A program made the position numbers and the translations under genes. From Nitrospirota bacterium (lineage in GTDB: Bacteria > Nitrospirota > Nitrospiria > Nitrospirales > Nitrospiraceae): a DNA stretch of 64,000 bases. Position 1 is the stretch's first letter, and every line of letters starts with the position of its first letter. The DNA is taken from the NCBI GenBank assembly GCA_016219645.1, contig JACRLR010000016.1:310001-374000 (forward strand), read 5' to 3'. Shown here one piece after another: positions 11,874 through 45,383 of this stretch. The notes below the pieces were generated by a model. It did no database searches. It saw only the letters and a program-made list of their open reading frames with translations, and was not told the origin of the DNA.

Positions 11874-12139
11874 GGATGCTGAAAAATGACGGGGTAGCTG
11901 GGACGATCCTCGTGCTCGCGCAACGCGCGCGATCGGAATGTGCTCGTTCGACGCGCGCACTCGAGGATCGACTAGGCTACCCTTGAAAAAGAAACGATGG
12001 ATTGGAAAGATGCGCGCAGTTGGGATCATCCCACCCACTCCTTATGAAGTGATAGTTCGTTACAGCCTTGCCCGAGGAACAGCGCGTCTTGGCGCGCTTG
12101 GGCTGGGCGGGTGAGAACCGTGGACTTTTTGAGCATCCA
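11874..12139. repeat. long inverted repeat, copy C
   Basis: The ends TGGATGCTGAAAAA and CTTTTTGAGCATCCA are inverted copies. Inside are the shared core (GAATGTGCTCGTTCGACG) and the GGATCGACTAGGCTACCCTT segment also seen in copy A. It starts right after the antiporter stop and explains the 336-base gap. Confidence 0.72.
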
Positions 12140-20041: not shown

Positions 20042-20135
20042 CGCCATCTTCCCTGGTTCTGGCCCAGATTCAATAGCCCTCTTCACTTTTCGTTTCTCCT
20101 CAATCTGTGTAAGGTCACGCACATGCCGTCGACAG

Positions 20136-20630: not shown

Positions 20631-20728
20631 TCGTTACGGCAGTCTTTGCATACATCAACGCGCAGTGCGGTCACGCTGTAAGACTCGACACACCTGCGCG
20701 ACCCATGCGCACGTGTGTGAGGGGACCA

Positions 20729-21961: not shown

Positions 21962-22162
21962 TTCCTTCGTTCTTCCGCGCCACCAGCTCCATGTCCCGTT
22001 GACGGCCTACTCTCTCCATCCCAGCAGCTCTGCCACACTTCATGTCATTCAAGGATTGTTTGTAAGCAATGGCGCATGTACACGACCAACGGGCAGAGCG
22101 GATATCCCGCGACGCTGAGTGCAATCAGCACTGTGCGATAACCACACAATAGGAGGGTTGTC

Positions 22163-26539: not shown

Positions 26540-26743
26540 CACCACCGCTCGATCGGACTCTTCAGGGGCTGGCAGCAATCATCTTGTTATGCCACGAACC
26601 GGCGTGCGGTTGTTCGCCTGAATTGTCGGTCGTTGCGATCGCGTCACTGTATCCGCCTAATCTTCCTTTTCTGCGGCACCCTTTCCCTTGGTTTGTAAGG
26701 TCTCAGTCTGTGGACCGACTCCCTCCTGTACGAGGGAGGGGGC

Positions 26744-28288
26744 ATGTTCACTCACTACGACGTGATCATCATCGGCACTGGACCAGGTGGCGGCACGCTG
26801 GCCTACAAGCTGGCGCCGTCGGGAAAGAAGATTCTTCTCTTAGAGCGTGGCGGCTATTTGCCGCGCGAGAAGGACAACTGGAGTTCCAAGACTGTCTTTA
26901 TCGACAACAAGTACAAGGCCAAGGAGACCTGGTACGACAAGGATGGCGGCACGTTTCACCCAGGCATTCATTACAACGTCGGGGGAAACAGCAAAGTCTA
27001 TGGGGCTGCCCTGCTGCGCATGCGCCAGGAAGATTTCGGCGAGGTGAAGCATCACGGCGGCATCTCTCCGGAATGGCCCATCCGCTACGACGACCTCGAA
27101 TCTTATTACACGCAGGCCGAACATCTGTACTACGTGCACGGCAACCGTGGAGAAGATCCGACCGAACCGAAGGCCAGCGCGCCCTACAAGTATCCAGCCC
27201 TTACGCACGAACCTCGCATCCAGGAACTCCACAACGACTGGCAGAGGTGCGGCTACAAGCCCTTTCACCTGCCGGTCGGCGTGATGCTGAACGAGGAACA
27301 ACAAGAAAAGAGCGCCTGCATCCGCTGCAATACGTGCGACGGTTTTCCCTGTTTGGTCAATGCCAAGGCCGACTCGCAAGTGGTCTGTGTCGATCCGGCG
27401 TTGCGGTATCCCAATGTGTCATTGGTCACTGGTGCACTGGTCACTCGGTTAGAGACGAGCGCAGCGGGGCGAGAGGTTACCGCTGTTGATGTTGAACGAA
27501 ACGGACAACAGGAAACCTACACAGCCGGCATCGTGGTCGTCTCAGCCGGCGCGATTAACTCGTCGGCGTTGTTGCTGAAGTCCGCGAGCGAGAAACATCC
27601 GAATGGCCTGGCAAATTCCTCCGGCATGGTTGGTCGTCACTACATGTGCCATAACAACTCGGCGATGCTCGCGATTTCCAAGCGGCCGAATCCGACGGTG
27701 TTTCAGAAGACCATCGGCTTGAATGATTTCTATTTTCCCTCGGCCGAGTGGGACTATCCGATGGGCCACATTTCGATGATCGGTAAGTCGGACTTGGATA
27801 CGCTTCGGGCCGGCGCGCCGGCCTTTGCCCCCGATAAGGCTCTCGATGCGATGGCGAAACATTCGCTCGACTTCTGGATGACCTCGGAAGATCTGCCTGA
27901 TCCAAACAATCGCGTGCTCGTCGGGAAAGACGGCACGATCACGCTGGCCTATACAGAGAACAATCTGGAAGCGCATCAACGTCTCGCTGCCAAGCTCAAG
28001 AGCATGCTCAATCATATCGGCTGTGAAGACCGTTTGCTGCCGACGCATCTCTATCTCGGCAAGAAGATCCCGATCGCTGGGACCGCTCACCAGTGCGGGA
28101 CTGTGCGGTTCGGACACGATCCGAAGGTGTCTGTTCTGGATGTGAACTGCAAAGCACACGATCTGGATAATCTCTATGTCGTCGATGCGAGTTTCTTTGT
28201 GTCGAGTTCAGCGGTGAATCCCTCGCTCACGATTATTGCCAACGCATTGAGGGTGGGAGACCATCTTCTGGAAAGGCTGCATGCATGA
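26744..28288 (+). CDS. GMC-family flavoprotein oxidoreductase
   Basis: The 514-residue protein opens with the FAD-binding GTGPGGGTLAYKLA. It then has a Cys-rich patch (CIRCNTCDGFPC) near residue 195 and an active-site His region (AGTAHQCGTVRFG) toward the end, closing with NPSLTIIANALR. GMC enzymes oxidise alcohols, sugars or sterols with FAD. There is no signal peptide. The stop overlaps the start of the following NDH-2-like gene by four bases, and electrons could pass to quinone through that flavoprotein. Substrate unknown. Confidence 0.87.
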   Translation: MFTHYDVIIIGTGPGGGTLAYKLAPSGKKILLLERGGYLPREKDNWSSKTVFIDNKYKAKETWYDKDGGTFHPGIHYNVGGNSKVYGAALLRMRQEDFGEVKHHGGISPEWPIRYDDLESYYTQAEHLYYVHGNRGEDPTEPKASAPYKYPALTHEPRIQELHNDWQRCGYKPFHLPVGVMLNEEQQEKSACIRCNTCDGFPCLVNAKADSQVVCVDPALRYPNVSLVTGALVTRLETSAAGREVTAVDVERNGQQETYTAGIVVVSAGAINSSALLLKSASEKHPNGLANSSGMVGRHYMCHNNSAMLAISKRPNPTVFQKTIGLNDFYFPSAEWDYPMGHISMIGKSDLDTLRAGAPAFAPDKALDAMAKHSLDFWMTSEDLPDPNNRVLVGKDGTITLAYTENNLEAHQRLAAKLKSMLNHIGCEDRLLPTHLYLGKKIPIAGTAHQCGTVRFGHDPKVSVLDVNCKAHDLDNLYVVDASFFVSSSAVNPSLTIIANALRVGDHLLERLHA

Positions 28289-29676
28289 TTCCTCGAATGG
28301 ATGAAGTGGATCATAGAGGGTCCTGCCAGGTGGTCCCTGGGCGGAAGCATGTCGTGATCCTGGGCGGAGGCTTCGGCGGCGTGTATGCCGCGATCGAGTT
28401 CGAGAAAACACTGGCTCGGGACTCGAACGTATGCATCACACTCGTGAACCGCGAGAACTTCTTTCTCTTTACCCCGATGCTGCACGAAGTCGCCTCCGGC
28501 GACCTGGACATGACCAACATCGTCAACCCGATTCGCAAGCTCCTGCGCCGTGTGGAGTTCTTCCACGGGGAGGTGCAATCGATCAATTTGGCGCAGCGGC
28601 AGATCAGCCTGATCCATGGGGAGACGCACCATGGGCATATCATGCCTTACGATCATCTGGTACTGGCCTTTGGATCGGTCACGAACTTCTACGGTTTGCC
28701 CGGCCTGGCTGAACGGGCCCTCACGATGAAGACACTCGGCGATGCCATTTATCTTCGCAATCGCATGATTGCCCATCTGGAAGAAGCCAACTTTGAATGC
28801 GCGGCTCCGGAACGAAAGCTGCTCTTGACCTTCGTGGTCGCGGGCGGCGGATTTGCCGGAGTGGAAACGATTGCCGGAATGAACGATTTTCTCCGGGAGG
28901 CGCTCCCGTTCTATCCGCATCTCCGGCCCGACATGCTGCGCCTGGTGCTCGTGCATTCCGGCCCGGAGATTCTTCCCGAACTCGGCGAGCAATTAGGACG
29001 GTATGCCCACGAGAAGTTGTCGGAGCGCGGAGTCGAAATCAGGACCAACGTCAAAGTCGTCGAGATGTCGGATGACAATGTCCGCTTGAGCGACGGAACC
29101 GACCTGACGACAAACACGCTGGTCTGGACGGCTGGGACCGCGCCCAACCCGTTACTCGCCACGCTGCCTTGCAAGACGAAAGGGGGGCGTTTGCTCGTGA
29201 ACGATTCCCTTGAAGTGCCGGACTGGCCTGGTGTGTGGGCGTTGGGCGACTGTGCCTTGATTCCGGATCAGCTAACAGGCGGGTTTCATCCACCGACAGG
29301 ACAACATGCGATGCGTGAAGCTGCGGTAGCAGCCCGCAATGTCACGGCGGCCTTTCGCGGGACGGCGAAGCAACCATTTCGATTCAAGACTATCGGCCTG
29401 CTTGCGGCCATTGGGCGACGCACAGGCGTCGCCAGAATTTTTGGCATCAATTTCTCCGGAGTCATCGCCTGGTCCTTGTGGCGGGTGGTCTATCTCGGTA
29501 AGTTGCCGCGCATTGAAAAGAAAGTTCGCGTGCTGCTCGACTGGCTGCTGGATGTGATTTTCTCGAAAGACCTCGTCCAATTCCAGACCGTCCGTGGTCA
29601 TGCCCCAATCTCGGATCCTGTCGCTCAACCGGTTGTGGGGCTGACCGCAGAGCCGGTGACCTCCAGCCAGGGGTAG
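28285..29676 (+). CDS. type II NADH dehydrogenase-like FAD protein
   Basis: The 463-residue protein has two Rossmann motifs: GGGFGGVYAAIEF near residue 28 (FAD) and GGGFAGVET near residue 190 (NAD(P)H). The GDCALIPD segment near residue 315 closes the FAD site. Relatives (NDH-2) reduce quinone at the membrane surface without pumping protons. The C-terminal part (LGKLPRIEKKVRVLLDWLLD) can bind the membrane. It overlaps the GMC gene by four bases and sits three bases before the VOC gene. A ferredoxin- or sulfide-quinone-type partner is possible. Confidence 0.85.
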   Translation: MIPRMDEVDHRGSCQVVPGRKHVVILGGGFGGVYAAIEFEKTLARDSNVCITLVNRENFFLFTPMLHEVASGDLDMTNIVNPIRKLLRRVEFFHGEVQSINLAQRQISLIHGETHHGHIMPYDHLVLAFGSVTNFYGLPGLAERALTMKTLGDAIYLRNRMIAHLEEANFECAAPERKLLLTFVVAGGGFAGVETIAGMNDFLREALPFYPHLRPDMLRLVLVHSGPEILPELGEQLGRYAHEKLSERGVEIRTNVKVVEMSDDNVRLSDGTDLTTNTLVWTAGTAPNPLLATLPCKTKGGRLLVNDSLEVPDWPGVWALGDCALIPDQLTGGFHPPTGQHAMREAAVAARNVTAAFRGTAKQPFRFKTIGLLAAIGRRTGVARIFGINFSGVIAWSLWRVVYLGKLPRIEKKVRVLLDWLLDVIFSKDLVQFQTVRGHAPISDPVAQPVVGLTAEPVTSSQG

Positions 29677-29679
29677 GCT

Positions 29680-30717
29680 ATGCTGCTCAGGAACCGGCTC
29701 ATCAGAACCTCTCTGATCCTTGCGGTGCTGCTGTTCCTGCCGACGATGCAGGCTCTGGCGGGAGAGAGCCGCACGGCATCGGCGACCGCTGTGAGATCGA
29801 TCGGCTTTACCGTATCGGAGATGGTTCGGTCCATCTCGTTCTATTCCGATGTGCTGACGTTCAAGATTATCAGCGATGTGGAAGTGGATGGACCGGAATA
29901 CGACCAGCTCTGGGGCATTTTTGGTGTACGGGCGCGACTGGTCAAGCTGCAGCTGGGCGAGCAGCAGCTTGAGCTGATCCAGTTCCTGGCGCCGCCGGAT
30001 GTGCAGCCGATTCCTGTGCCGTCCTACAGCAACGATCTCTGGTTCCAACACGTCGCCATCGTCGTGCGCGATATGGATGCGGCCTGGGCACAACTGCGGA
30101 AACATCACGTCCGGCAGATTTCGCCTCGGCCACAGACGATTCCCATGTCGAATCCAGCCGCTGCCGGCATCAAGGCGATCAAGTTCCGCGATCCGGATGG
30201 GCACAACCTTGAATTGCTCTGGTTTCCGGAAGGGAAAGGCAACCCGATCTGGAAGAAGCCCGGCGCGAGCCTTTTCATGGGCATTGATCATACGGCCATA
30301 ACGGTGCGCAGCACGGAGAACAGCACTAAGTTCTACCGTGATCTGCTCGGGCTGACTGTTGCAGGCGGTACGCTGAACATGGGGATGGAGCAGCAATACC
30401 TTGATAGCCTACCTGGCGCGAGGGCCCGTGTGACTGGCCTGACTCCAAAGATGTCTCCGCCCGGCGTGGAGCTCCTGGAATATGAACTGCCGACTGCGGG
30501 AAGGCCGTTCCCGGTTGACTCACGTCCGACCGATCTCTGGCATTGGCAGACGACGCTGATTGTTTCTGATGTGGAGGCCGCCGCTGCAGCTTTGAGGGAA
30601 GCAGCGCACTTCGTCTCATCGACAGTTGTCACGTTTCCTGACAAATCGCTGGGCTTCACCAAGGGATTCCAGGTGCGTGATCCGGATGGACACGCTCTAC
30701 AAATCGTATCGCCATGA
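29680..30717 (+). CDS. exported protein with two VOC (glyoxalase-like) domains
   Basis: The 345-residue protein has a signal peptide (MLLRNRLIRTSLILAVLLF) cut near QALAG. Two glyoxalase/VOC modules follow: residues about 40-190 (SIGFTVSEMVRSISFYSDV, with FRDPDGHNLELL) and about 200-345 (MGIDHTAITVRSTENSTKFY, ending VRDPDGHALQIV). VOC proteins use paired beta-alpha-beta units to bind a metal and act on small molecules. The exported position is unusual for a glyoxalase. It is probably in an operon with NDH-2. Confidence 0.83.
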   Translation: MLLRNRLIRTSLILAVLLFLPTMQALAGESRTASATAVRSIGFTVSEMVRSISFYSDVLTFKIISDVEVDGPEYDQLWGIFGVRARLVKLQLGEQQLELIQFLAPPDVQPIPVPSYSNDLWFQHVAIVVRDMDAAWAQLRKHHVRQISPRPQTIPMSNPAAAGIKAIKFRDPDGHNLELLWFPEGKGNPIWKKPGASLFMGIDHTAITVRSTENSTKFYRDLLGLTVAGGTLNMGMEQQYLDSLPGARARVTGLTPKMSPPGVELLEYELPTAGRPFPVDSRPTDLWHWQTTLIVSDVEAAAAALREAAHFVSSTVVTFPDKSLGFTKGFQVRDPDGHALQIVSP

Positions 30718-30779
30718 GTGCTGCCACGTGTGCTGCGGCATAGTTGCAGAAACCCATAACGCTCTTCCGAGGTGGAAGC

Positions 30780-31529
30780 ATGATGTCTCGCCTTCTGTTG
30801 ATGATCTTGTTTCTGATCGGTGGCATAGGTGACGGGTGGGCGGCAGACGAACATGCGCTGTCCCACTGGGGCTATGAAGGCGAGGAGGGCGCTGCTCACT
30901 GGGGCATGAGAAGCTCGGCTTACATGGCCTGCGAGGCAGGCTCACACCAATCGCCGGTCAACATCTCGATGCCGAGCCACGCACAGCAACAGGAGCGGTT
31001 GGTCTTCCAATATCGATCAGGTCCTGTGCAGGCGCTGGACAACGGCCATACCATCCAAGTGAATGTGCTGTCTGGAAATGAATTGCACCTCAACGGTCGA
31101 ACCTATTTTCTACGCCAATTTCATTTCCATGATCCGAGCGAGCATCAAGTCGATGGGCGGACCTACCCGATGGAGATCCACTTGGTGCACCAAGACCGGA
31201 AGGGGCATGTGGTCGTGATTGGGGTATTCGTCGAAACTGGCTCACCGAATCGGTCACTCGCGGAACTCTGGGCCATGCTTCCGATGAAAGCGGGAGAGGT
31301 AGGTTCAGAGCACCAGTTCAATCCCCAAGACCTCATCCCCTCCAACAGCCACCATTTCTCCTATCACGGATCGTTGACTACGCCACCCTGTACCGAAGGT
31401 GTCCAGTGGATTATCTTACGCGACCCGATCTCCATGTCCACTCAACAAATCGCGCAGCTCACTTCGATCATCGGCCAGAATGCCCGCCCTATCCAGCCGT
31501 TGCACGATCGGAAAATTTACAAAGAGTAA
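30780..31529 (+). CDS. alpha-carbonic anhydrase, periplasmic
   Basis: The protein has 249 residues from the ATG at 30780 with GAGGTGG upstream. The signal peptide (MSRLLLMILFLIGGIGDGWA) is followed by HWGYEG, SHQSPVNI and the zinc residues FHFHDPSEH and MEIHLVHQD. The active-site motif is intact, so the enzyme should convert CO2 and bicarbonate in the periplasm. It may help provide inorganic carbon, a use that fits an autotroph, but this is inferred. Confidence 0.93.
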   Translation: MMSRLLLMILFLIGGIGDGWAADEHALSHWGYEGEEGAAHWGMRSSAYMACEAGSHQSPVNISMPSHAQQQERLVFQYRSGPVQALDNGHTIQVNVLSGNELHLNGRTYFLRQFHFHDPSEHQVDGRTYPMEIHLVHQDRKGHVVVIGVFVETGSPNRSLAELWAMLPMKAGEVGSEHQFNPQDLIPSNSHHFSYHGSLTTPPCTEGVQWIILRDPISMSTQQIAQLTSIIGQNARPIQPLHDRKIYKE

Positions 31530-31707
31530 CCTCTGCCCCAGTGTCTTTCCTGTTAACAGATAGTTTCGTAACGAGATGCCGTAGATTTCTTTTCCATCAA
31601 TAGCCGTATTGCAGGATTCTAGACAAGAGTGCTAGACTTCCATACTCGGCCCTGCTATTCCCCAGTACGTAACAGAACGTAGGCTAGTATTGACGGGAAA
31701 GGTCGGC

Positions 31708-34700
31708 ATGGCACAAGACACGACCACGCTGGACGATCCGAAACGGTTAGACGCGCTCCACGCCTACGAGATCCTCGATACCCAGCCAGATCCTGCCTTC
31801 GATCGACTGGCCAAATTAGCCGCGCAGATCTGCGGGACTCCCTATGCGGCGATTACATTTATCGACCGTGAGCGGCTGTTCTATAAATCGAAAATCGGGT
31901 TCACCGACGGCGAGGCGCTAGACTCGCCGGGACTTTGCCACCAGGCCCTTCGCCACACCGATCTGTGTATCGTGCCGGATACGATGCAGGGCGAGCAATT
32001 CGCTTCGAAACCGATGGTCATCGGGGATGCTCAGGTTCGCTTTTACGCCGATATGCCATTGAAGACGACGGAGGGCCATACCCTCGGCATGCTCTGTGTG
32101 CTTGACCGCATCCCGCGCCAACTCACCAAAGAGCAGGGCGACGCACTGCGGGTGCTGGCCCATGAGGTTCTCACCGAGTTGGAATTACGCCGGACTCGCA
32201 AAAGCCTGGAAGAGGGCACGTTCCGGCAAGATCCGGTGCTTGGTGCGCGATACAAGGCCGACGAGTTTCTCCGTTCGCTCGTCGAAGGCACTGTGGCCTC
32301 GACCGGCGGAGACTTTCTCCGCGAACTCGTCAAGCACGTGGCTGCGGCCTTGGGCATTCGTTACGCCTTCGTCGGCTATCTCCTTCCAGAATCACGCATT
32401 CGCACGCTCGCCTTCTGGAAAGGCGACGGCTACCTTGATCAAATGGAGTACAGTCTCGATGGCACGCCTTGCACGAAGGTGATCCAGGGCGAAACCTGCC
32501 ATTATGCGCAAGATGTCCAGCAACTTTTCCCGCATGATCAGGATCTGGTGACGTTGGGTGTCACAAGCTATTTAGCTGTCCCGCTGAAAGATCCGAAAGG
32601 CCAGGTCCTAGGCCATTTGGTCGCGATGGATATCAAACCGATGACCCTGACCTCCGATGAAATCGAGGTGTTCAAACTGTTCGGCGAACGGGCTGGCGTC
32701 GAAATTTACCGTCAAGTGCTTGAAACGTCCCTCCAGCAACGCGAGGCCACGCTTCGCGCCATCGCGGAAGGGACGGCGACCGAGGTGGGAACCAATTTTT
32801 TCCGCTCGCTCGTCAAGAGCCTGGCAACAGCCCTTGGCGTGGATTACGCCTACATTTCCGAACTCGGTGACAACGGCCAGACCTTTCGTTCGCGTGCCGG
32901 TTGGGGGAAGGGCCAGGTACTCTCGCCGTTCGACGTCCCGGCGCAGGGCCCCTGCGAGACCGTCCTCAAGCGGAATTGCGTGCACCATCCGAGCAAACTT
33001 CGAGCACTCTATCCACACGTGCAGTTGATTCAGGATATCGAGGTGGAGAGCTACTGCGGCGTTCCGGTTGTGAGCACATCGGGCAAGGTGCTTGGACATC
33101 TGGCTGTGATGGACTGCCATCTGATGCCCGACAAGGAGCTGGTTATGTCGGTGCTCGGTATCTTTGCCGCGAGAGCCGGTGCGGAGTTCGAACGGCTGTA
33201 CTATGAAGAGACGATGCACAAGAGTAACTTGACGCTCAGAGCCATCTTTGAAGGCACGGCACCTGCCGTGGGTGTGGGATTTTTCCATTCCCTCGTGAAG
33301 AACCTGGCAAGGGCCCTCGGTGTCGAATATGCGTTCGTGTCGGAATTTTGTATGGACCGGACCAAGGTGCGGACTCTGGCTTTCTGGGCCGGCGATCGGC
33401 TGAAAGACAATTTTGAGTATGCCATCGCCCATACGCCCTGCGAAAGGGTACTGGCCGGGGAGATCTATCATTGCGAGGACAAGGTCGCCGATCGTTTTCC
33501 GCTCCACAGAGAGGATCTGGAAAAGCTCGGCGTGCAGAGTTATCTGGCGATTCCGGTGACGAGCGTGAGCGGGGAGGTGCTGGGGCATCTGGCAGTCATG
33601 GACCGAAAGCCGATGGCGCTCGAGCAACTCGATCTGTCTGTATTTAAGATCTTCAGTGCGCGGGCCGGCGCCGAACTAGAGCGGCTGCACATGGAAATTG
33701 TACTGAAAGACAACGAGGAGCGGTTGCGCGACCTGTTCGACGAAGCGCCGATTGCTTACGTCTACGAGGGGCTCGATTCAAAGTTGCTTCGCGTCAACCG
33801 CACGGCGATGAAATCCCTCGGCATTACGGCGGATCAGGTCGACGGCCTCTACGGTAGGGATTTCGTTCCCAATACACCCGACGCACAACGACGCTTGAAG
33901 GAAGCGTTCGCCTCCGTCGGTAAGGGCATCGATACCAGCGGCGTCGTGCTCGAACTGCGCCGTAAGGACAACGGCAAGCCGCTCTGGATGAAGTGGTGGT
34001 CACGGCCAGACCCCTCAGGCACCTATACCCGCACGATGTTTATCGACATCACTGAGCAGGTCTTGATGGAGCAGGAGAAGGCCCGGCTTGAAGCGCAGAA
34101 TGTCTATCTGCAGGAAGAAATTAAACTCACGCACAATTTCGAAGAATTGATAGGCGGCTCGACCTCGCTGAAAAAGGTGCTGAAGAATGTGGAACGGGTT
34201 GCCCCGACCGATTCGACCGTGTTGATCACAGGGGAAACCGGGACCGGCAAGGAGTTGATCGCGCGGGCGATCCATAACTTAAGTCCGCGGAAGGGCCGCC
34301 CTCTCGTCAAAGTCAATTGTGCAGCCATTCCAGCCGGTTTGATCGAAAGCGAGCTGTTCGGTCACGAGAAAGGCGCGTTTACCGGCGCGCTGACGAAAAA
34401 GATGGGCCGTTTTGAACTGGCCGACAAGGGGACTATTTTTCTCGACGAGATCGGGGAACTCCCGCTCGATCTGCAATCGAAACTGTTGCGCGTGCTTCAA
34501 GAGGGAGAATTCGAGCGGGTGGGCGGGACGCAGACGTTCAAGGTGAACGTGCGGGTCATTGCGGCAACGAACCGGAATCTCGAACAGCTTTCTAAGACCG
34601 GCCACTATCGCCCGGACCTCTACTACCGATTGAACGTGTTTCCAATTCACCTTCCTGCGTTGCGCGAGCGTGAGAGTGATATTCCGCTGTTGGCACAATT

Positions 34701-35079
34701 TTTCGTGCGCAAGTTTGCGACGGATCTCGGCAAGAAGATCGATCGGATTCCCGAGCGGATGATGTCGACGCTTCAGCGCTACCCTTGGCCGGGGAACATT
34801 CGCGAACTGGAGCATGTGATCGAACGTGCAGTGATTTTGAGCGAGGGGCCGGAGTTGGAACCGATCGACTGGCTTTCAGCATCAGCCAGCAAGACTGGAG
34901 AGAGGAAGGCTCTGACGCTCGAAGAGGTGGAGCGTCACCATATCGTCGACATTCTCGATCAGACGAACTGGCGAGTGAGCGGCGAAAAGGGCGCAGCCAA
35001 AATCCTCGGCCTGAACCCCACGACCCTCGAGGCAAGGATGAAAAAACTCGGCATCGAACGCGTGAAACTGGAGACGTGA
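31708..35079 (+). CDS. sigma-54 enhancer-binding protein with four GAF domains and one PAS
   Basis: The protein has 1123 residues from the ATG at 31708, with AAAGG upstream. GAF 1 spans about residues 15-160. GAFs 2-4 (about 190-660) share the opening FFxSLVKxLAxALGVxYAF, so they look like internal duplications. A PAS domain is near 670-790, then an AAA+ module with Walker A GETGTGKE near 841, GAFTGA near 889 and Walker B FLDEIG. The C-terminal Fis-like helix-turn-helix ([20 protein letters not shown]) is at the end. Such proteins activate sigma-54 promoters. The likely target promoter is 250 bases downstream. Confidence 0.93.
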
Positions 35080-35186
35080 GACGTGAAGTGTCGTTCGTGA
35101 AGCGCGTGCCAGAGTAGCTACACCCCTCGTTCATTGAATCGTTTCCTGCCAAACGTTACTAACCATCAGCTTTCAGCTCGTTTCCT

Positions 35187-35239
35187 ATTGGATGCTTCCA
35201 ACTAATTGGGACGATCCCAATATTTTGGGAATTGATCTC
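35187..35239. promoter_or_regulatory. candidate enhancer sites: inverted repeats upstream of a sigma-54 promoter
   Basis: ATTGGGACGATCCCAAT at 35205-35221 has perfect 7-bp arms around CGA. TTGGATGCTTCCAA at 35188-35201 is a second palindrome, and TTTTGGGAATT follows. They lie about 110-145 bases upstream of the sigma-54 element, a normal distance for enhancer-binding-protein sites. Confidence 0.5.
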
Positions 35240-35330
35240 CGCCTATGACCCCTGTCGCCTTCTTGCAAAATCCCCATCTTGTCATTCCATATCAACTACT
35301 TATGCTGACCTGCTCTCTACGTAGTTCGCC

Positions 35331-35346
35331 TGGCATCACTGTTGCT
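35331..35346 (+). promoter_or_regulatory. sigma-54 promoter element
   Basis: TGGCATCACTGTTGCT matches the TGGCAC-N5-TTGCW consensus with GG at 35332-35333 and GC at 35344-35345, spaced ten bases apart. It lies 41 bases upstream of the STAS-like gene start, so RNA would begin near 35357. Confidence 0.65.
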
Positions 35347-35386
35347 GAATACCCGGTCGACAGACGAACACTAAGGAGCGATGGAG

Positions 35387-35659
35387 ATGATGCTCAAGAT
35401 TACGATGATTCAAGAAAGCAGGCGCGACGTGCTCATCAAGCTCGAAGGAAAAATCACGGATGAATGGGCTGTTCTCCTGGATGGAGAGTGCCGCGCCTAT
35501 CTCAGGCAGGAGAAAGCCGTGCATCTGGATTGTTCCCATGTCGATTTCATCGATGCCAGGGGGGTTGAGGTTTTGAATAACCTTCCCCAAACACAAGTCA
35601 ATCTCATGAGCGCACCCGGTTTTATCACGGAGTTGCTGCAGATTGGAGGCCGGTCATGA
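35387..35659 (+). CDS. STAS-like (anti-sigma antagonist type) protein
   Basis: The protein has 90 residues, started at the ATG at 35387, which is eight bases after AAGGAG; the ATG at 35381 is too close. The strand-helix-strand pattern with VHLDCSHVDFIDARGVEVL resembles STAS domains, where a loop Ser/Thr or Asp accepts regulation. Here the loop has Asp-Ala-Arg. It overlaps the ECF sigma gene by four bases (ATGA), so the two are coupled. It could modulate an anti-sigma protein. Confidence 0.6.
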   Translation: MMLKITMIQESRRDVLIKLEGKITDEWAVLLDGECRAYLRQEKAVHLDCSHVDFIDARGVEVLNNLPQTQVNLMSAPGFITELLQIGGRS

Positions 35660-36366
35660 ATGCAGATGCCATCACCTACACAGAGTCCATTGATTACAGC
35701 CCTTCCATGAACTGGAAAGCGCCGGCAGTCAAGTCATCCAGCCTGACGAAGGCCGAGGACACAGTCATCGCGAGACTCAAGCGCGGTGACGAAGGGGCCT
35801 TCGACGAATTGGTCAACCAGCACCACAGCGCGCTCATCCGAATGGCGATGGGCTACGTGGCAGATCGGGAAGTGGCTGAGGAAGTGGTCCAGGACACCTG
35901 GATGGCCGTGATTGAAAGTCTCGATCGGTTCGAAGGCCGTTCATCCCTTCGTACCTGGATCTGCGGGATTTTGATCCATAAGGCCAAGGATCGCGGCGTT
36001 CGCGAGAAGCGCCATACGACCTTCTCGGCCTTCGCGTCCTACGATGACGACAACGATGAAGCAGTCGATCCCTCCCGCTTCCAGCAGAGCGGCGAGTGGG
36101 CCGGTCACTGGGCCTTCCCCCCGCAGCCCTGGGACGAACGGACACCGGAGACACTGCTGGCCAGCCAGCAAGCGGTCAATGCGATGCAGCGGGCGATCGA
36201 ATCCTTGCCGGCGACCTTGAAGGAGGTGCTCGTTCTCCGCGATGTGGAAGGGGTTGAGGCCAAGGAAGTCTGCGAGATGTTGAAGATTACGGAAACCAAC
36301 CTCTATGTCAGGCTTCACCGGGCGCGAGAGCGAGTGAGAGTGGCAGTGGAAACGGCCCTCGGATGA
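35656..36366 (+). CDS. ECF (sigma-24 type) RNA polymerase sigma factor
   Basis: The 236-residue protein has a region-2 stretch (LVNQHHSALIRMAMGYVADR, then AEEVVQDTWMAVIESL) and a region-4 helix-turn-helix (LPATLKEVLVLRDVEGVEAK, then YVRLHRARERVRVAVE). The linker between them (about residues 115-175, with SGEWAGHWAFPPQPWDER) is long. It directs RNA polymerase to specific promoters. An anti-sigma zinc-finger gene lies 133 bases downstream and a STAS-like gene overlaps upstream. A sigma-54 promoter ahead of the operon would put ECF activity under the GAF-domain activator. Confidence 0.9.
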   Translation: MNADAITYTESIDYSPSMNWKAPAVKSSSLTKAEDTVIARLKRGDEGAFDELVNQHHSALIRMAMGYVADREVAEEVVQDTWMAVIESLDRFEGRSSLRTWICGILIHKAKDRGVREKRHTTFSAFASYDDDNDEAVDPSRFQQSGEWAGHWAFPPQPWDERTPETLLASQQAVNAMQRAIESLPATLKEVLVLRDVEGVEAKEVCEMLKITETNLYVRLHRARERVRVAVETALG

Positions 36367-36499
36367 TAAGATTGAGGCTGAAGTTGGAAACCGTCAGTCT
36401 CGAGCCTTCAGCCTAGAAGCTACCCTAGCAGGGAGGCGCTGTAAGAAATCGATGATCGGGGGGACTCAGGGGTGAAGTCTCAATCGATGGACACTCCTC

Positions 36500-36766
36500 A
36501 TGAAGAACCATCCTGCACCGTGGGTCCACACCGGAGTCACCTGCCGCGAGGTTACAGACTGTGCTTCTGAGTACTTGGACGACAACATTTCCATCTTGAC
36601 CAAAGTTCGAGTCGGGCTGCATCTTGTTTCCTGCACCCACTGCCGTACTTATGTGCAACAGATCGATCTTGTATCCACTGCGCTGGGCAATCTTCCCAAA
36701 CTCTATCCATCGCCCACGAATCATCTCCGTCTGAAACAGCAGTTCGCCGCCCGTCTCGCCAGCTAG
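36500..36766 (+). CDS. zinc-finger anti-sigma-like protein
   Basis: The 88-residue protein carries the H-x3-C-x2-C ZAS motif (HLVSCTHCRTY) near residue 44 and an upstream Cys (TCREVTDCASEYLDD). It has no transmembrane segment, so it would be a soluble anti-sigma. It follows an ECF sigma gene after 133 bases that contain a 9-bp hairpin (36375-36414). The ATG has no clear ribosome binding site. It is similar in layout to the orphan at 26264-26539. Confidence 0.7.
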   Translation: MKNHPAPWVHTGVTCREVTDCASEYLDDNISILTKVRVGLHLVSCTHCRTYVQQIDLVSTALGNLPKLYPSPTNHLRLKQQFAARLAS

Positions 36767-41011: not shown

Positions 41012-41194
41012 TGAGAGAAGGGTTAGGCTCACTGGCGGTGGGGAGTTATGGCATGGCCTTTCGGATACGTCAGTAGAATTGCATGTAAGGTCGGGCGGAC
41101 TCGGGCGACTACATGATAGCAGCAAAAAGCAACTTGTAGCCAAGAGAGACTTAATCGCCACAATCTTCATCCAAATCAATAAAGGAAATTTGCC

Positions 41195-41710
41195 ATGATC
41201 AGGACAGCCACCGCTACGATACCGATCGAGAGTGATACCGATACCACTTTGAGCGAGAAACTGCAGGCTCTGGGAACGTTCATGACCCGCTATGGACTGG
41301 TAGTGATCTTTGCCTGGATCGGGGCAATGAAGTTTTCCGCCTACGAAGCGAGCGGCATTCAACCGTTGGTCGCTAATAGTCCCTTGATGAGTTGGCTCTA
41401 CAACATCTTCAGCGTGCAGGCCTTCTCGAACTGGCTCGGTGTATTGGAAATTGCCATCGCCGTGATGATTGCAGTTAGGCCTGTCTCCGCAAAAATCTCA
41501 GCAGTAGGCAGTGCGCTGGGCGCGGTGCTGTTCCTGGGCACTCTCAGTTTCATGCTGTCCACGCCACCTGTGTGGGAGGCTAGCTTGGGTGGGTTCCCCG
41601 CCCTGTCGGTCGCGCCGGGACAATTCTTATTGAAGGACCTGGCACTGTTGGGAGCATCGATTTGGACGCTGGGCGAAGCGCTCTCAGGTATGAGTCATAA
41701 GTCACGATAA
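41195..41710 (+). CDS. DUF417/YkgB-family inner-membrane protein
   Basis: The 171-residue protein has four predicted membrane helices (LVVIFAWIGAMKFSAYEAS, then AIAVMIAVRPVS, and LGAVLFLGTLSFML). WIGAMKFSAYEA is a hallmark of DUF417, whose E. coli member RclC is linked to reactive-chlorine defence. The ATG is behind AAAGG. It is next to glucose dehydrogenase and near cydAB. Its exact task is not known. Confidence 0.85.
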   Translation: MIRTATATIPIESDTDTTLSEKLQALGTFMTRYGLVVIFAWIGAMKFSAYEASGIQPLVANSPLMSWLYNIFSVQAFSNWLGVLEIAIAVMIAVRPVSAKISAVGSALGAVLFLGTLSFMLSTPPVWEASLGGFPALSVAPGQFLLKDLALLGASIWTLGEALSGMSHKSR

Positions 41711-41748: not shown

Positions 41749-42852
41749 ATGCGAGCCATAGCTGTGCTCCCGGGAAAACCCAACTCAATCCATCTGGCGG
41801 AACTGCCCAAGCCATTGGTCCACGAAATCCCCAATGGAAGAGGCGTGTTGGTGCAAGTGCTGCGCGTCGGGGTGGATGGCACTGACAGAGAAATCAACGC
41901 CGCCGAATATGGCCAGGCTCCGCCAGGTTACGATTTTCTCGTGATCGGCCATGAGTGTTTTGGGCGGGTGCTGGAAGTCGGCCCCAACGTCACAGAGTTC
42001 GTGCCAGGCGATTATGTGGTCCCGACAGTGCGGCGCCCAGGCGGCAGCTTCTACGACCAGATAGGCCAGTACGACATGACCAGCGAGGATGTCTACTACG
42101 AGCGGGGGATCAACCTCCGTCACGGCTACCTGACCGAGCTGTTTGTGGATGATCCGGAATATCTGGTCAAAATTCCGAAAGGGCTCAAGGATGTGGCTGT
42201 TCTGCTTGAGCCGACCTCGATCATTGAAAAAGGCATCATCCAGGCCTATGAAGCGCAGCGACGGTTCAAGGTCTGGCGACCGAAGAAAGCGGCGGTGCTG
42301 GGGGCAGGAACTGTGGGATTGCTCGCGGCCCTCTCGCTGAAGATGAAGGGCTTCGAGGTCACCAGTTTCGGGAAAGAGAGTAGGCCGTCACGCAATCTCG
42401 ATCTTCTGGAGGAATTGGGTGTGCGGTACATCTCGACGAACGATCTGTCGATCCGAGAAGCGGCGAAACGTTTTGGCCCGTTCGATCTCATGTTCGAAGC
42501 GACCGGCTATTCTCCTGTGGTGTTCGAGGCCATGGAATGTCTCGGCAAGAACGGCGTGCTGGTGTTGGCGAGCGTGACGGGAGGCGACCGTGAACATGCA
42601 GTCCCGGCGGACAAAATCAATCTGGACTTCGTGCTCGGAAACAAGCTGGTTGTTGGGACTGTCAATGCCAATCGCGAATACTTTGAAACAGGCGTGTACG
42701 ACTTTGCGCGAGCCGAGCTGGAGTTCCCTGGCTGGCTCCCGAAGTTGCTGACTCATCCGGTGACAGGGCTGGAGAACTATCAGGAAATGATGCAGACGCT
42801 GACGAAGGAACGCAACGCAATTAAGGTTTTTGTGAATGTTGCGTACGACTAA
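41749..42852 (+). CDS. glucose 1-dehydrogenase-like MDR oxidoreductase
   Basis: The 367-residue protein has a GroES-like N-terminal part ([12 protein letters not shown]) and an NAD(P)-binding site ([17 protein letters not shown]) near residue 185. The C-terminal third ([19 protein letters not shown]) fits the glucose dehydrogenase C-terminal family. It would oxidise an aldose at C1 to a lactone, which could then be hydrolysed. This fits the gluconolactonase-like gene, though they are 15 kb apart and one is exported. A good AGGAG site precedes the ATG. Confidence 0.82.
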
Positions 42853-42973: not shown

Positions 42974-43288
42974 ATGAAAAAGATTATGCTGTCGGTCATT
43001 GCAGTCATGTGTGTGGCGGGTTTCAGCTCCCTTTCATTTGCCGAAGATATGGGGAAGATGAAGGGGGAAATGATGGGCGAGATGAAGGGTGAGATGAAAG
43101 GTATGAAGGGGGAAACGGGCGAGATGAAGGGCGAAATGAAGGGTGAGATGAAGGGAATGAAGGGCGAGATGAAGGGCAAGCATGATGAGATGAAGGGGGA
43201 AATGAAAGGTAAGCATGATGAGATGAAAGGGGAAATGAAAAGCATGAAGGGGGAAATGGGCGAGATGAAGGGAGCTATGGGGAAGTAG
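42974..43288 (+). CDS. periplasmic Met/Lys/Gly/Glu repeat protein
   Basis: The protein has 104 residues from the ATG at 42974 with AGGAGG six bases before. A signal peptide (KIMLSVIAVMCVAGF, cut after SFA) is followed by about 75 residues made of MKGE, MKG and MMGE units, with two copies of KHDEMKGEMK. Met and His spacing could bind Cu or another soft metal, and the Lys/Glu pattern favours a helix. The codons vary little, so the DNA is also repetitive. No family is recognised. Confidence 0.75.
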   Translation: MKKIMLSVIAVMCVAGFSSLSFAEDMGKMKGEMMGEMKGEMKGMKGETGEMKGEMKGEMKGMKGEMKGKHDEMKGEMKGKHDEMKGEMKSMKGEMGEMKGAMGK

Positions 43289-43363: not shown

Positions 43364-43446
43364 GCACCTCACCGGCCTTGTAAGAATCGAGGCCGGGCGT
43401 CGACTAAGGAGCAGACAGGTGGTCCACAGCCAGAGGAGATACGATC

Positions 43447-44427
43447 ATGACCGCGCTCATTCACGAAGAAGCCGGAACAAGTATAGGCCGGGAGGAAGAG
43501 CCCGTTTCTGGGCCGGCGATGAAGGCCGACCAGTTCCCATCCACAGATCAATCTGACTCAGTCGATCTTACCGCAAACCAGGATGACGCGTTGGCTGCAC
43601 GACCTGCCTCATCTCCGGCGATCGAGAGGGTCTATCGCCATCGGTTACCAGTAAGGATCAGCCATTGGCTCAATGTCCCCATTCTTATCATCCTGATTAT
43701 GAGCGGGCTCCAAATTTTCAATGCCCATCCGGCTCTCTATTGGGGCGATCGATCCGATCGCGATCGGCCGTTGATCTCGATCCGTCCTGAAAAAACCGAG
43801 AGCGGCGAGATGCGCGGCATCACGACCATTCTGGGCTATAAGTTCGACACAACAGGAGTGCTCGGCTATTCGGATGGCAAGCGCCGAGCCTTCCCTGCCT
43901 GGGCGACCATTCCGAGCGCCAAAATTCTGGCGATGGGACGGCAGTGGCACCTGTTCTTCGCGTGGCTCCTCGTCATCAATGGGTTGTTTTTCACGGCTTA
44001 TGCATTGATCAGTCGGCATGCGGCTCGCGATCTGGCTCCGACCGGCGAAGACCTGCGTGGTATCGGCAAGGCCGTCAAAGACCACATTGTCCTGCGGCAT
44101 CCCCAAGGTGAGGAGGCCAAGCGGTACAACGTGCTGCAAAAACTCGCCTATGTCGTGATTCTGTTCGTGGTGGCGCCGTTGATCGTGCTGACGGGCCTTG
44201 CGATGTCGCCGACGATCGATGCGGCGGTCCCCTGGCTGCTCACGATATTCGGCGGGCGGCAGGCGGCGAGGACGATCCATTTCGTTGCCTGTTTTTCATT
44301 CGTCGCTTTTATTATCGTCCACGTAGCGGAAGTCTTCTTGACAGGGTTCTTTAATAACATGCGGTCGATGGTGACGGGATGGTTTGTCGTGAAGCACGAG
44401 CGTGAAGGAGCGAGCCATGAAGCCTAG
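43447..44427 (+). CDS. cytochrome b561-type membrane subunit
   Basis: This 326-residue protein has a hydrophilic N-terminus and four to five membrane helices. Candidate heme-binding His residues are in RHRLPVRISHWLNVPILI, GRQWHLFFAWLL and ARTIHFVACFSFVAF. It matches the cytochrome b subunits of Mo-containing oxidoreductases such as thiosulfate or formate enzymes and Ni/Fe hydrogenases. The partner molybdoprotein is encoded 180 bases downstream, so the two probably move electrons between a periplasmic substrate and the quinone pool. A repeat begins right after its stop. Confidence 0.85.
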   Translation: MTALIHEEAGTSIGREEEPVSGPAMKADQFPSTDQSDSVDLTANQDDALAARPASSPAIERVYRHRLPVRISHWLNVPILIILIMSGLQIFNAHPALYWGDRSDRDRPLISIRPEKTESGEMRGITTILGYKFDTTGVLGYSDGKRRAFPAWATIPSAKILAMGRQWHLFFAWLLVINGLFFTAYALISRHAARDLAPTGEDLRGIGKAVKDHIVLRHPQGEEAKRYNVLQKLAYVVILFVVAPLIVLTGLAMSPTIDAAVPWLLTIFGGRQAARTIHFVACFSFVAFIIVHVAEVFLTGFFNNMRSMVTGWFVVKHEREGASHEA

Positions 44428-44606: not shown

Positions 44607-45383
44607 ATGGTTCCACATAAACGCGCAATGGAACGCAGGCAGTTTCTGAAGGGGACATTGGGCGCTGCGAGTCTCGTAACCCTCGCCGGCTGTGATAATT
44701 TGTCGCAGAGCAGTTGGTTCCCCTCCATCTTGAGTCAGGCCGAGAAACTGACCGAACGGGCACAACGGGCGGTGACGCCGGCCGACGCCCTGGCGAAAGA
44801 ATATGGAGAGGGCGACATCTCAAAGGTATTTCCGGCGAACGGGAACACCGATCCCGGCACTGGTGAGTATGCCGAACACGTTGCGCAGAAGTTTGCCAAA
44901 TGGACGGTCATGGTCGGCGGTTTAGTTCAGACCCCCACGAGTTGGTCGCTTGCAGCACTGAAAGAGTTGCCATCACGGACACAAATTACCCGGCATGACT
45001 GTGTCGAAGGCTGGAGTGCCATCGGCAAGTGGACGGGAGTCCCGCTCGGTGACCTCATGCGCGAGGTTCAACCATTGCCGACTGCCCGATACGCGGTCTT
45101 CTATTGTGCCGATGTGGATGAAGAAGGGGTGCCGTACTACGAGAGCATGACCCTGGCCGACTGCTTCCACCCGCAAACGATCCTGGCTTACGAGTTGAAT
45201 GGTGCTCCGTTGGATGTTCCCCATGGCGCGCCGATTCGCCTCCGTTTTGAACGCCAACTTGGGTACAAACAGGCGAAGTATGTGACGATGATTGAGCTGG
45301 TGGAGACCTTTTCCGGTATTAGAGGCGGGAAGGGCGGGTATTGGGAGGATGACCAAGGGTATGAGTGGTACGCGGGAATCTAA
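44607..45383 (+). CDS. molybdopterin-dependent oxidoreductase (sulfite-oxidase/MsrP-like)
   Basis: The 258-residue protein has a twin-arginine-like or lipobox signal (MERRQFLKGTLGAASLVTLAG then C). The molybdenum-coordinating Cys lies in TRHDCVEGWSAIGKW near residue 133, typical of the sulfite-oxidase fold, and KYVTMIELVETF near the end fits. It has no C-terminal dimerisation domain, so it resembles MsrP/YedY rather than plant sulfite oxidase. The ATG at 44607 has a strong GAGGAGG site. It probably pairs with the cytochrome b encoded just upstream. Confidence 0.88.
   Translation: MVPHKRAMERRQFLKGTLGAASLVTLAGCDNLSQSSWFPSILSQAEKLTERAQRAVTPADALAKEYGEGDISKVFPANGNTDPGTGEYAEHVAQKFAKWTVMVGGLVQTPTSWSLAALKELPSRTQITRHDCVEGWSAIGKWTGVPLGDLMREVQPLPTARYAVFYCADVDEEGVPYYESMTLADCFHPQTILAYELNGAPLDVPHGAPIRLRFERQLGYKQAKYVTMIELVETFSGIRGGKGGYWEDDQGYEWYAGI

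Follow-up and report, generated by a model that had tools for sequence, protein, structure and literature searches.

A predicted, conserved sigma-54 to ECF sigma factor cascade in Nitrospira

Which genes does the ECF sigma factor encoded beside a sigma-54 enhancer-binding protein (EBP) read in Nitrospira, and which polymerase transcribes the sigma factor gene itself? Members of Nitrospira are key organisms in nitrite oxidation, including that in water treatment systems, and their gene regulation is little known. The window, by which we mean the whole 64,000-nucleotide stretch of DNA analysed, belongs to contig C16 of a 3.65-Mb Nitrospira-type genome, and an initial annotation of it had proposed a sigma-54 to ECF cascade. 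Promoter anatomy, conservation of the enhancer, co-occurrence of the parts and the presence of rpoN all favour this proposal. A real and conserved cascade of this kind, with the promoter anatomy described below, is strongly supported by the sequence comparisons. For these, 41 relatives of the ECF protein were found, of which 40, in Nitrospira-type genomes, were used as loci L017-L056; all but one of the relatives found are Nitrospira or Nitrospiraceae records, two of which are labelled Nitrosospira. Nitrospira moscoviensis is among the carriers of the locus (L046).

The ECF sigma factor, its anti-sigma factor and a putative regulon

The following features make up the STAS-ECF region and the gene downstream of it.

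35390-35659, + strand: STAS-domain protein (Pfam), with the conserved start MLKIT at 35390, not 35381
35656-36366, + strand: ECF sigma factor (Pfam, NCBIfam), overlapping the STAS gene by 4 bases
36440-36465, + strand: predicted ECF-type promoter of the anti-sigma gene, TGTAAG-N16-GGAC, with one mismatch, at a position shared by relatives
36500-36766, + strand: zinc-type anti-sigma factor of 88 aa (NF052368, above cut-off)

The NCBIfam equivalogs shown for the ECF protein were all below cut-off. In three loci (L037, L040 and L053), ECF paralogues with 54-78% identity occur without STAS gene, enhancer or -24/-12 element, beside a different conserved gene set that includes a two-component pair in L037 and L053.

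The anti-sigma factor is a soluble NF052368 protein and not a multi-helix membrane protein of the NrsF family; comparison with solved structures gave no match. It carries the motif C-x25-H-x3-C-x2-C, present in 30 of 32 loci, and these zinc ligands suggest thiol-redox release. The initial annotation had placed the STAS, ECF and anti-sigma genes in a single operon; the three genes are indeed there, but the last appears to have an ECF-type promoter of its own, and such a site precedes it in nearly all loci possessing an anti-sigma gene. Transcription might also run on from STAS-ECF into the anti-sigma gene. An inverted repeat, AGGCTGAAG...CTTCAGCCT, was noticed by eye downstream of the ECF gene and ahead of the anti-sigma promoter (window 36372-36415); it has no T run, and no terminator was called there.

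The targets of the ECF sigma factor itself had been missed. The motif TGTAAG-N16-CGAC was found in upstream regions of neighbouring genes: across 41 loci, it occurred 62 times on the gene (+) strand as compared to 2 times on the - strand, and the reversed-string control gave 1 match. Its flanks are biased, with R after TGTAAG and A two bases further on after CGAC. Nine exact copies exist genome-wide, six of them in the window, all on one strand. Since the raw pattern was near control level in many genomes of the genus, the evidence lies in the clustering and placement of the sites, not in their number. A weighted matrix placed sites before anti-sigma, DUF417, dehydrogenase, YHS, cytochrome b and GMC genes; it was trained on the same loci, and its strand ratio of 99 to 4 is thus partly circular. 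The sites in the window, together with one associated gene, are as follows.

20108-20133, + strand: exact ECF-type motif with no clear downstream gene
20677-20702, + strand: exact ECF-type motif ca. 420 bp before a MIP/aquaporin gene (21095), to which its link is uncertain
22061-22086, + strand: exact ECF-type motif before genes for a small secreted-type protein (22163) and HbpS-like proteins (22627, 23222)
26694-26719, + strand: predicted ECF-type promoter upstream of genes for GMC oxidoreductase, NDH-2, glyoxalase and carbonic anhydrase (26744-31529)
41084-41109, + strand: predicted ECF-type promoter upstream of genes for a DUF417/RclC-like protein (41195-41710) and a dehydrogenase (41749-42852)
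42974-43288, + strand: methionine-rich repeat peptide (23 Met in 104 residues) with an apparent signal peptide
43379-43404, + strand: predicted ECF-type promoter before genes for cytochrome b561 (43447-44427) and an MsrP-like molybdopterin oxidoreductase (44607-45383)

Oxidant-defence genes read by the ECF sigma factor are well supported as the regulon, with a motif that is statistical and a link to this particular ECF that we infer. The best NCBIfam matches were RclC for the DUF417 protein (99 bits, below the cut-off of 275) and MsrP for the molybdopterin oxidoreductase (95 bits, below the cut-off of 207). The partner of the MsrP-like protein here is cytochrome b561, not MsrQ, and the methionine-rich peptide is encoded nearby. 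A similar peptide occurs in 22 loci, the window included, and no conserved promoter was seen directly before its gene. Under hypochlorous acid, Brucella uses an ECF/anti-sigma pair to express a methionine-rich MXKDX peptide and MsrPQ-like proteins from promoters of the form (T/C)GTAAC-N17-CGAA (PMC8315932), and the DUF417 protein RcrB of uropathogenic Escherichia coli is a homologue of RclC (PMC9600549). Based on these parallels, the RclC-like protein, the MsrP-like protein and the methionine-rich peptide point to reactive chlorine or related oxidants, which is our best guess for the signal. That the regulon serves general redox or membrane stress and not reactive chlorine species is a serious, though not the favoured, possibility, because GMC oxidoreductase, NDH-2, glyoxalase and, in some loci, cytochrome bd are also among its genes and the RclC and MsrP matches are remote; the joint presence of a methionine-rich peptide, an MsrP-like and an RclC-like protein nevertheless resembles the sets that respond to HOCl in these two organisms. 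Genes of the chlorite dismutase family were seen at C16:222891-223277, C52:67724-68281 and C15:48385-48645, away from ECF sites.

Upstream of the STAS gene, neither the motif nor the matrix search found an ECF-type site, and autoregulation of the ECF gene was rejected on this ground.

The sigma-54 promoter and its upstream sites

The region between the EBP gene and the STAS gene contains the following features.

31690-35079, + strand: EBP with four GAF domains, a PAS domain, a sigma-54 AAA+ domain (GAFTGA) and a Fis-type HTH (Pfam; neighbourhood)
35183-35188, + strand: accessory enhancer half-site, TCCTAT here and TCCCAA/T in relatives (78% column identity)
35196-35211, no strand assigned: predicted enhancer site A, TTCCAA-CTAA-TTGGGA, from tandem pattern searches (half-sites 98% and 92% conserved)
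35215-35230, no strand assigned: predicted enhancer site B, TCCCAA-TATT-TTGGGA (half-sites 98% and 93% conserved)
35290-35302, + strand: predicted IHF-type site TATCAACTACTTA, matching WATCARNNNNTTR at 9/9 positions, 41 bp before -24
35331-35346, + strand: predicted sigma-54 -24/-12 promoter TGGCATCACTGTTGCT

The promoter element is near consensus, with the correct spacing of 10 nt from GG to GC, and transcription would be expected to start near 35357. The bare pattern TGGCAY-N5-TTGCW (up to one mismatch) had 4 matches in the window as compared to 3.9 by chance; since the pattern alone was thus unremarkable, it was tested by comparison among relatives. In 34 aligned upstream regions, the -24/-12 columns showed 98-99% identity while the flanks showed 45-48%, and the element lay 44-54 bases ahead of the STAS start in nearly all STAS-bearing loci. 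The 16-base element recognised by the initial annotation, with GG and GC at the right spacing, is therefore near-invariant, and rpoN, on which the proposal depended, is present in the genome (PF04552, 189 bits). A -24/-12 element was also searched for upstream of the EBP gene and none was found, so that sigma-54 control of the EBP gene was rejected. In one locus, an exact ECF-type motif lies 215 bp upstream of the EBP gene (L047:2792-2817); positive feedback is possible in that lineage.

Between promoter and enhancer, the initial annotation had missed the IHF-type site. This block is ca. 87% conserved in the 34 aligned regions, and 27 of the 34 loci match WATCARNNNNTTR at 8 or more of 9 positions upstream of -24, mostly at -40/-41. 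The genome contains an IHF alpha gene (above cut-off) and an IHF beta-like gene (111.9 bits, cut-off 115). The sister family has lost the ATCAA half of the site and keeps only [CT]ACTT[AG]. In its loci L091-L093, the place of the Nitrospira IHF-type site, ca. 40 bp upstream of -24 and directly before the sigma-54 promoter, is taken by a terminator-like hairpin that has a T run (AACCGGCCAC...GTGGCCGGTTTT). Because of this replacement and the lost half, binding of IHF at 35290-35302 is considered no more than likely. The other reading, in which the block is promoter context or the site of a second regulator, would fit the sister-family loci and the IHF beta match slightly below cut-off; we regard it as unlikely without dismissing it, given the 8-9/9 consensus positions at a mostly fixed spacing and the fact that IHF between enhancer and promoter is the usual arrangement, including at the hrpL promoter (PMC5263251).

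Upstream of this likely IHF site, sites A and B form two 16-bp repeats 19 bp apart (TCCCAA-N4-TTGGGA-N3-TCCCAA-N4-TTGGGA), ca. 100-135 bp before -24, site A having one mismatch to TCCCAA-N4-TTGGGA; the accessory half-site is 13 bp upstream of site A. The four half-sites are 92-98% conserved in the aligned regions, again with flanks of 45-48%. TTGGGA-type palindromes had been noted here before and are present, but in another register: TTGGGA-N3-TCCCAA is the inner junction of the two TCCCAA-N4-TTGGGA units, and this register was rejected, since in the alignment its outer copies (at 35187 and after 35230) do not keep their palindromic form. The genome search that had been suggested for the same palindrome returned a single exact copy in 3.65 Mb, TTGGGACGATCCCAA at 35206-35220. 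The near-copies (TTGGGATCATCCCA) were rejected as further targets, being a dispersed repeat. This repeat, around GCGCAGTTGGGATCATCCCA[CG]CCAC, has many genomic copies and resembles the enhancer palindrome in a different context; examples are window 12020-12034 and 2191-2205 and loci L003-L015.

The spacing from enhancer to -24 is kept, also where ca. 1.6 kb and another gene part the EBP gene from the STAS gene, and the enhancer block is thus part of the STAS promoter and not the tail of the EBP gene. The extra gene, of ca. 450-500 aa, occurs in 11 loci (L025-L028, L030, L032, L034, L036, L043, L049 and L052), in which enhancer and promoter remain with STAS; the one member scanned had no Pfam match. 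Allowing up to 3 mismatches, the tandem enhancer was found once in each of 7 of the 32 genus genomes and in none of the other 25, and exactly these 7 encode a full-length ECF orthologue with at least 80% identity. It was found in 45 of 396 genomes of the phylum, all but one in the same family or order; the lone match outside the order is poor, and the EBP-STAS-ECF genes are absent there. Nine further non-chance loci were retrieved by the enhancer alone, eight with EBP-STAS-ECF, also in the sister family, and one on a contig that stops after the EBP gene. In four of the eight, the ECF protein is just 42-46% and the STAS protein 29-32% identical. As no protein was used in this search, the retrieval is an independent confirmation.

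The gene next to the enhancer had been described as a four-GAF EBP and the likely activator. Pfam agrees on the domains (PF00158, 246 bits; HTH_8, 34 bits) and adds the PAS domain, and GAFTGA was seen in the translation. The gene adjoins STAS-ECF in nearly all relatives whose contig extends to it. This EBP likely acts at the tandem enhancer, a pairing based on neighbourhood. The promoter and enhancer could be real and yet be served by another EBP of the genome, as six further places resemble the HTH region (39-56% identity); this is improbable, since the nearest other HTH is only 56% identical, over 52 residues, and in the Nitrospirales loci compared, the sister family included, the EBP gene accompanies the enhancer. 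Least probable of all is that a sigma-70 promoter serves the operon, with the palindromes as a repressor operator: a weak 9/12 sigma-70-like match at 35279-35306 does overlap the region, but shuffled sequences give matches of about this quality and it shows no conservation as a block, the -24/-12 element is nearly invariant, and operators normally overlap the promoter whereas these palindromes lie ca. 100-135 bp upstream of -24.

The proposed cascade and known systems

Partner switching, the input that the initial annotation had added to the cascade, found no support in the STAS protein and was rejected. Of 35 STAS proteins, 33 have Ala, Gly, Gln, Val or Glu at the position that presumably corresponds to the SpoIIAA phosphoserine, and 2 have Ser; in the sister family the residue there is likewise not Ser/Thr. 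The match to RsbS is very weak, and of the conserved neighbours identified, part of which were scanned, none was recognised as a kinase or phosphatase partner; such partners could be encoded elsewhere. The STAS protein is probably an unphosphorylated binding partner, which is the weakest step of the model.

The cascade may work as described below. The EBP would bind the two tandem TCCCAA-N4-TTGGGA sites, and DNA bent by IHF would bring it to the sigma-54 polymerase at 35331-35346, starting STAS-ECF transcription; we infer this activation from anatomy, conservation and co-occurrence. The cytosolic zinc-thiol anti-sigma factor, as its motif suggests, would hold the ECF protein until oxidised. 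Once released, the ECF sigma factor would read the TGTAAG-N16-CGAC promoters of the RclC-like DUF417, dehydrogenase and cytochrome b/MsrP-like genes, and would transcribe its own anti-sigma gene, giving negative feedback. Taken as a whole, this two-step model, from EBP and sigma-54 to the ECF and on to an oxidant-defence regulon and the ECF's own inhibitor, appears quite probable. With a sigma-54 promoter and no ECF site before STAS, and an ECF site before the anti-sigma gene, the sigma gene would be transcribed by sigma-54 polymerase and the anti-sigma gene seemingly by the ECF. We tentatively suggest a two-key switch, in which different holoenzymes transcribe the ECF and its redox-released anti-sigma factor and the mostly phosphosite-less STAS protein is a third input. 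The locus offers a complete promoter layout, an activator that apparently has one target and a defined regulon motif, and the seemingly separate promoters of ECF and anti-sigma factor bear on the tuning of such cascades.

Two-step sigma switches are known; new here are the STAS gene, the zinc anti-sigma factor under apparent ECF control and the redox regulon. The literature searched, which lay largely outside subscription journals, held no description of such a cascade in Nitrospira. The anti-sigma factor has the ligand spacing of RsrA, C-x25-H-x3-C-x2-C, and in this resembles the redox anti-sigma factor of the SigR/RsrA pair; its sequence match to the RsrA model is weak (20.7 bits, cut-off 62.5). 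SigF/NrsF of Azospira, reportedly described by Melnyk in 2015, is an ECF/anti-sigma system that we liken to this one together with BcrS/AbcS of Brucella. The latter (BcrS/AbcS - bcrXQP, ECF16) is similar in that an ECF/anti-sigma pair lies beside a methionine-rich repeat peptide and a pair of the methionine sulfoxide reductase type, to which the MsrP-like protein and cytochrome b561 may correspond here, and its target sequence resembles the motif found here; it differs in that its anti-sigma factor has six membrane helices (NrsF) and its ECF drives its own operon (PMC8315932), whereas here the anti-sigma factor is a soluble zinc protein and the ECF would be supplied by sigma-54. Sigma-54 regulators beside nxr genes have already been noted in Nitrospira; in the relevant passages these concern nitrite oxidoreductase, with no ECF target described, unlike the present case (PMC6606698, PMC7522533).

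The closest known cascade is HrpRS - sigma-54 - HrpL (ECF32) of Pseudomonas syringae, which shares an ECF gene under a sigma-54 promoter with upstream activator sites, an IHF site and negative feedback (PMC8999054, PMC5263251). Control of an ECF gene by sigma-54 and an EBP, the HrpL-type feature, is predicted here from anatomy. Unlike HrpL, the Nitrospira locus has one GAF-domain EBP in place of the HrpR/HrpS pair and a different enhancer, a STAS gene and a zinc anti-sigma factor are added, feedback would act by way of an anti-sigma gene under ECF control, and the output would be a redox regulon instead of type III secretion.
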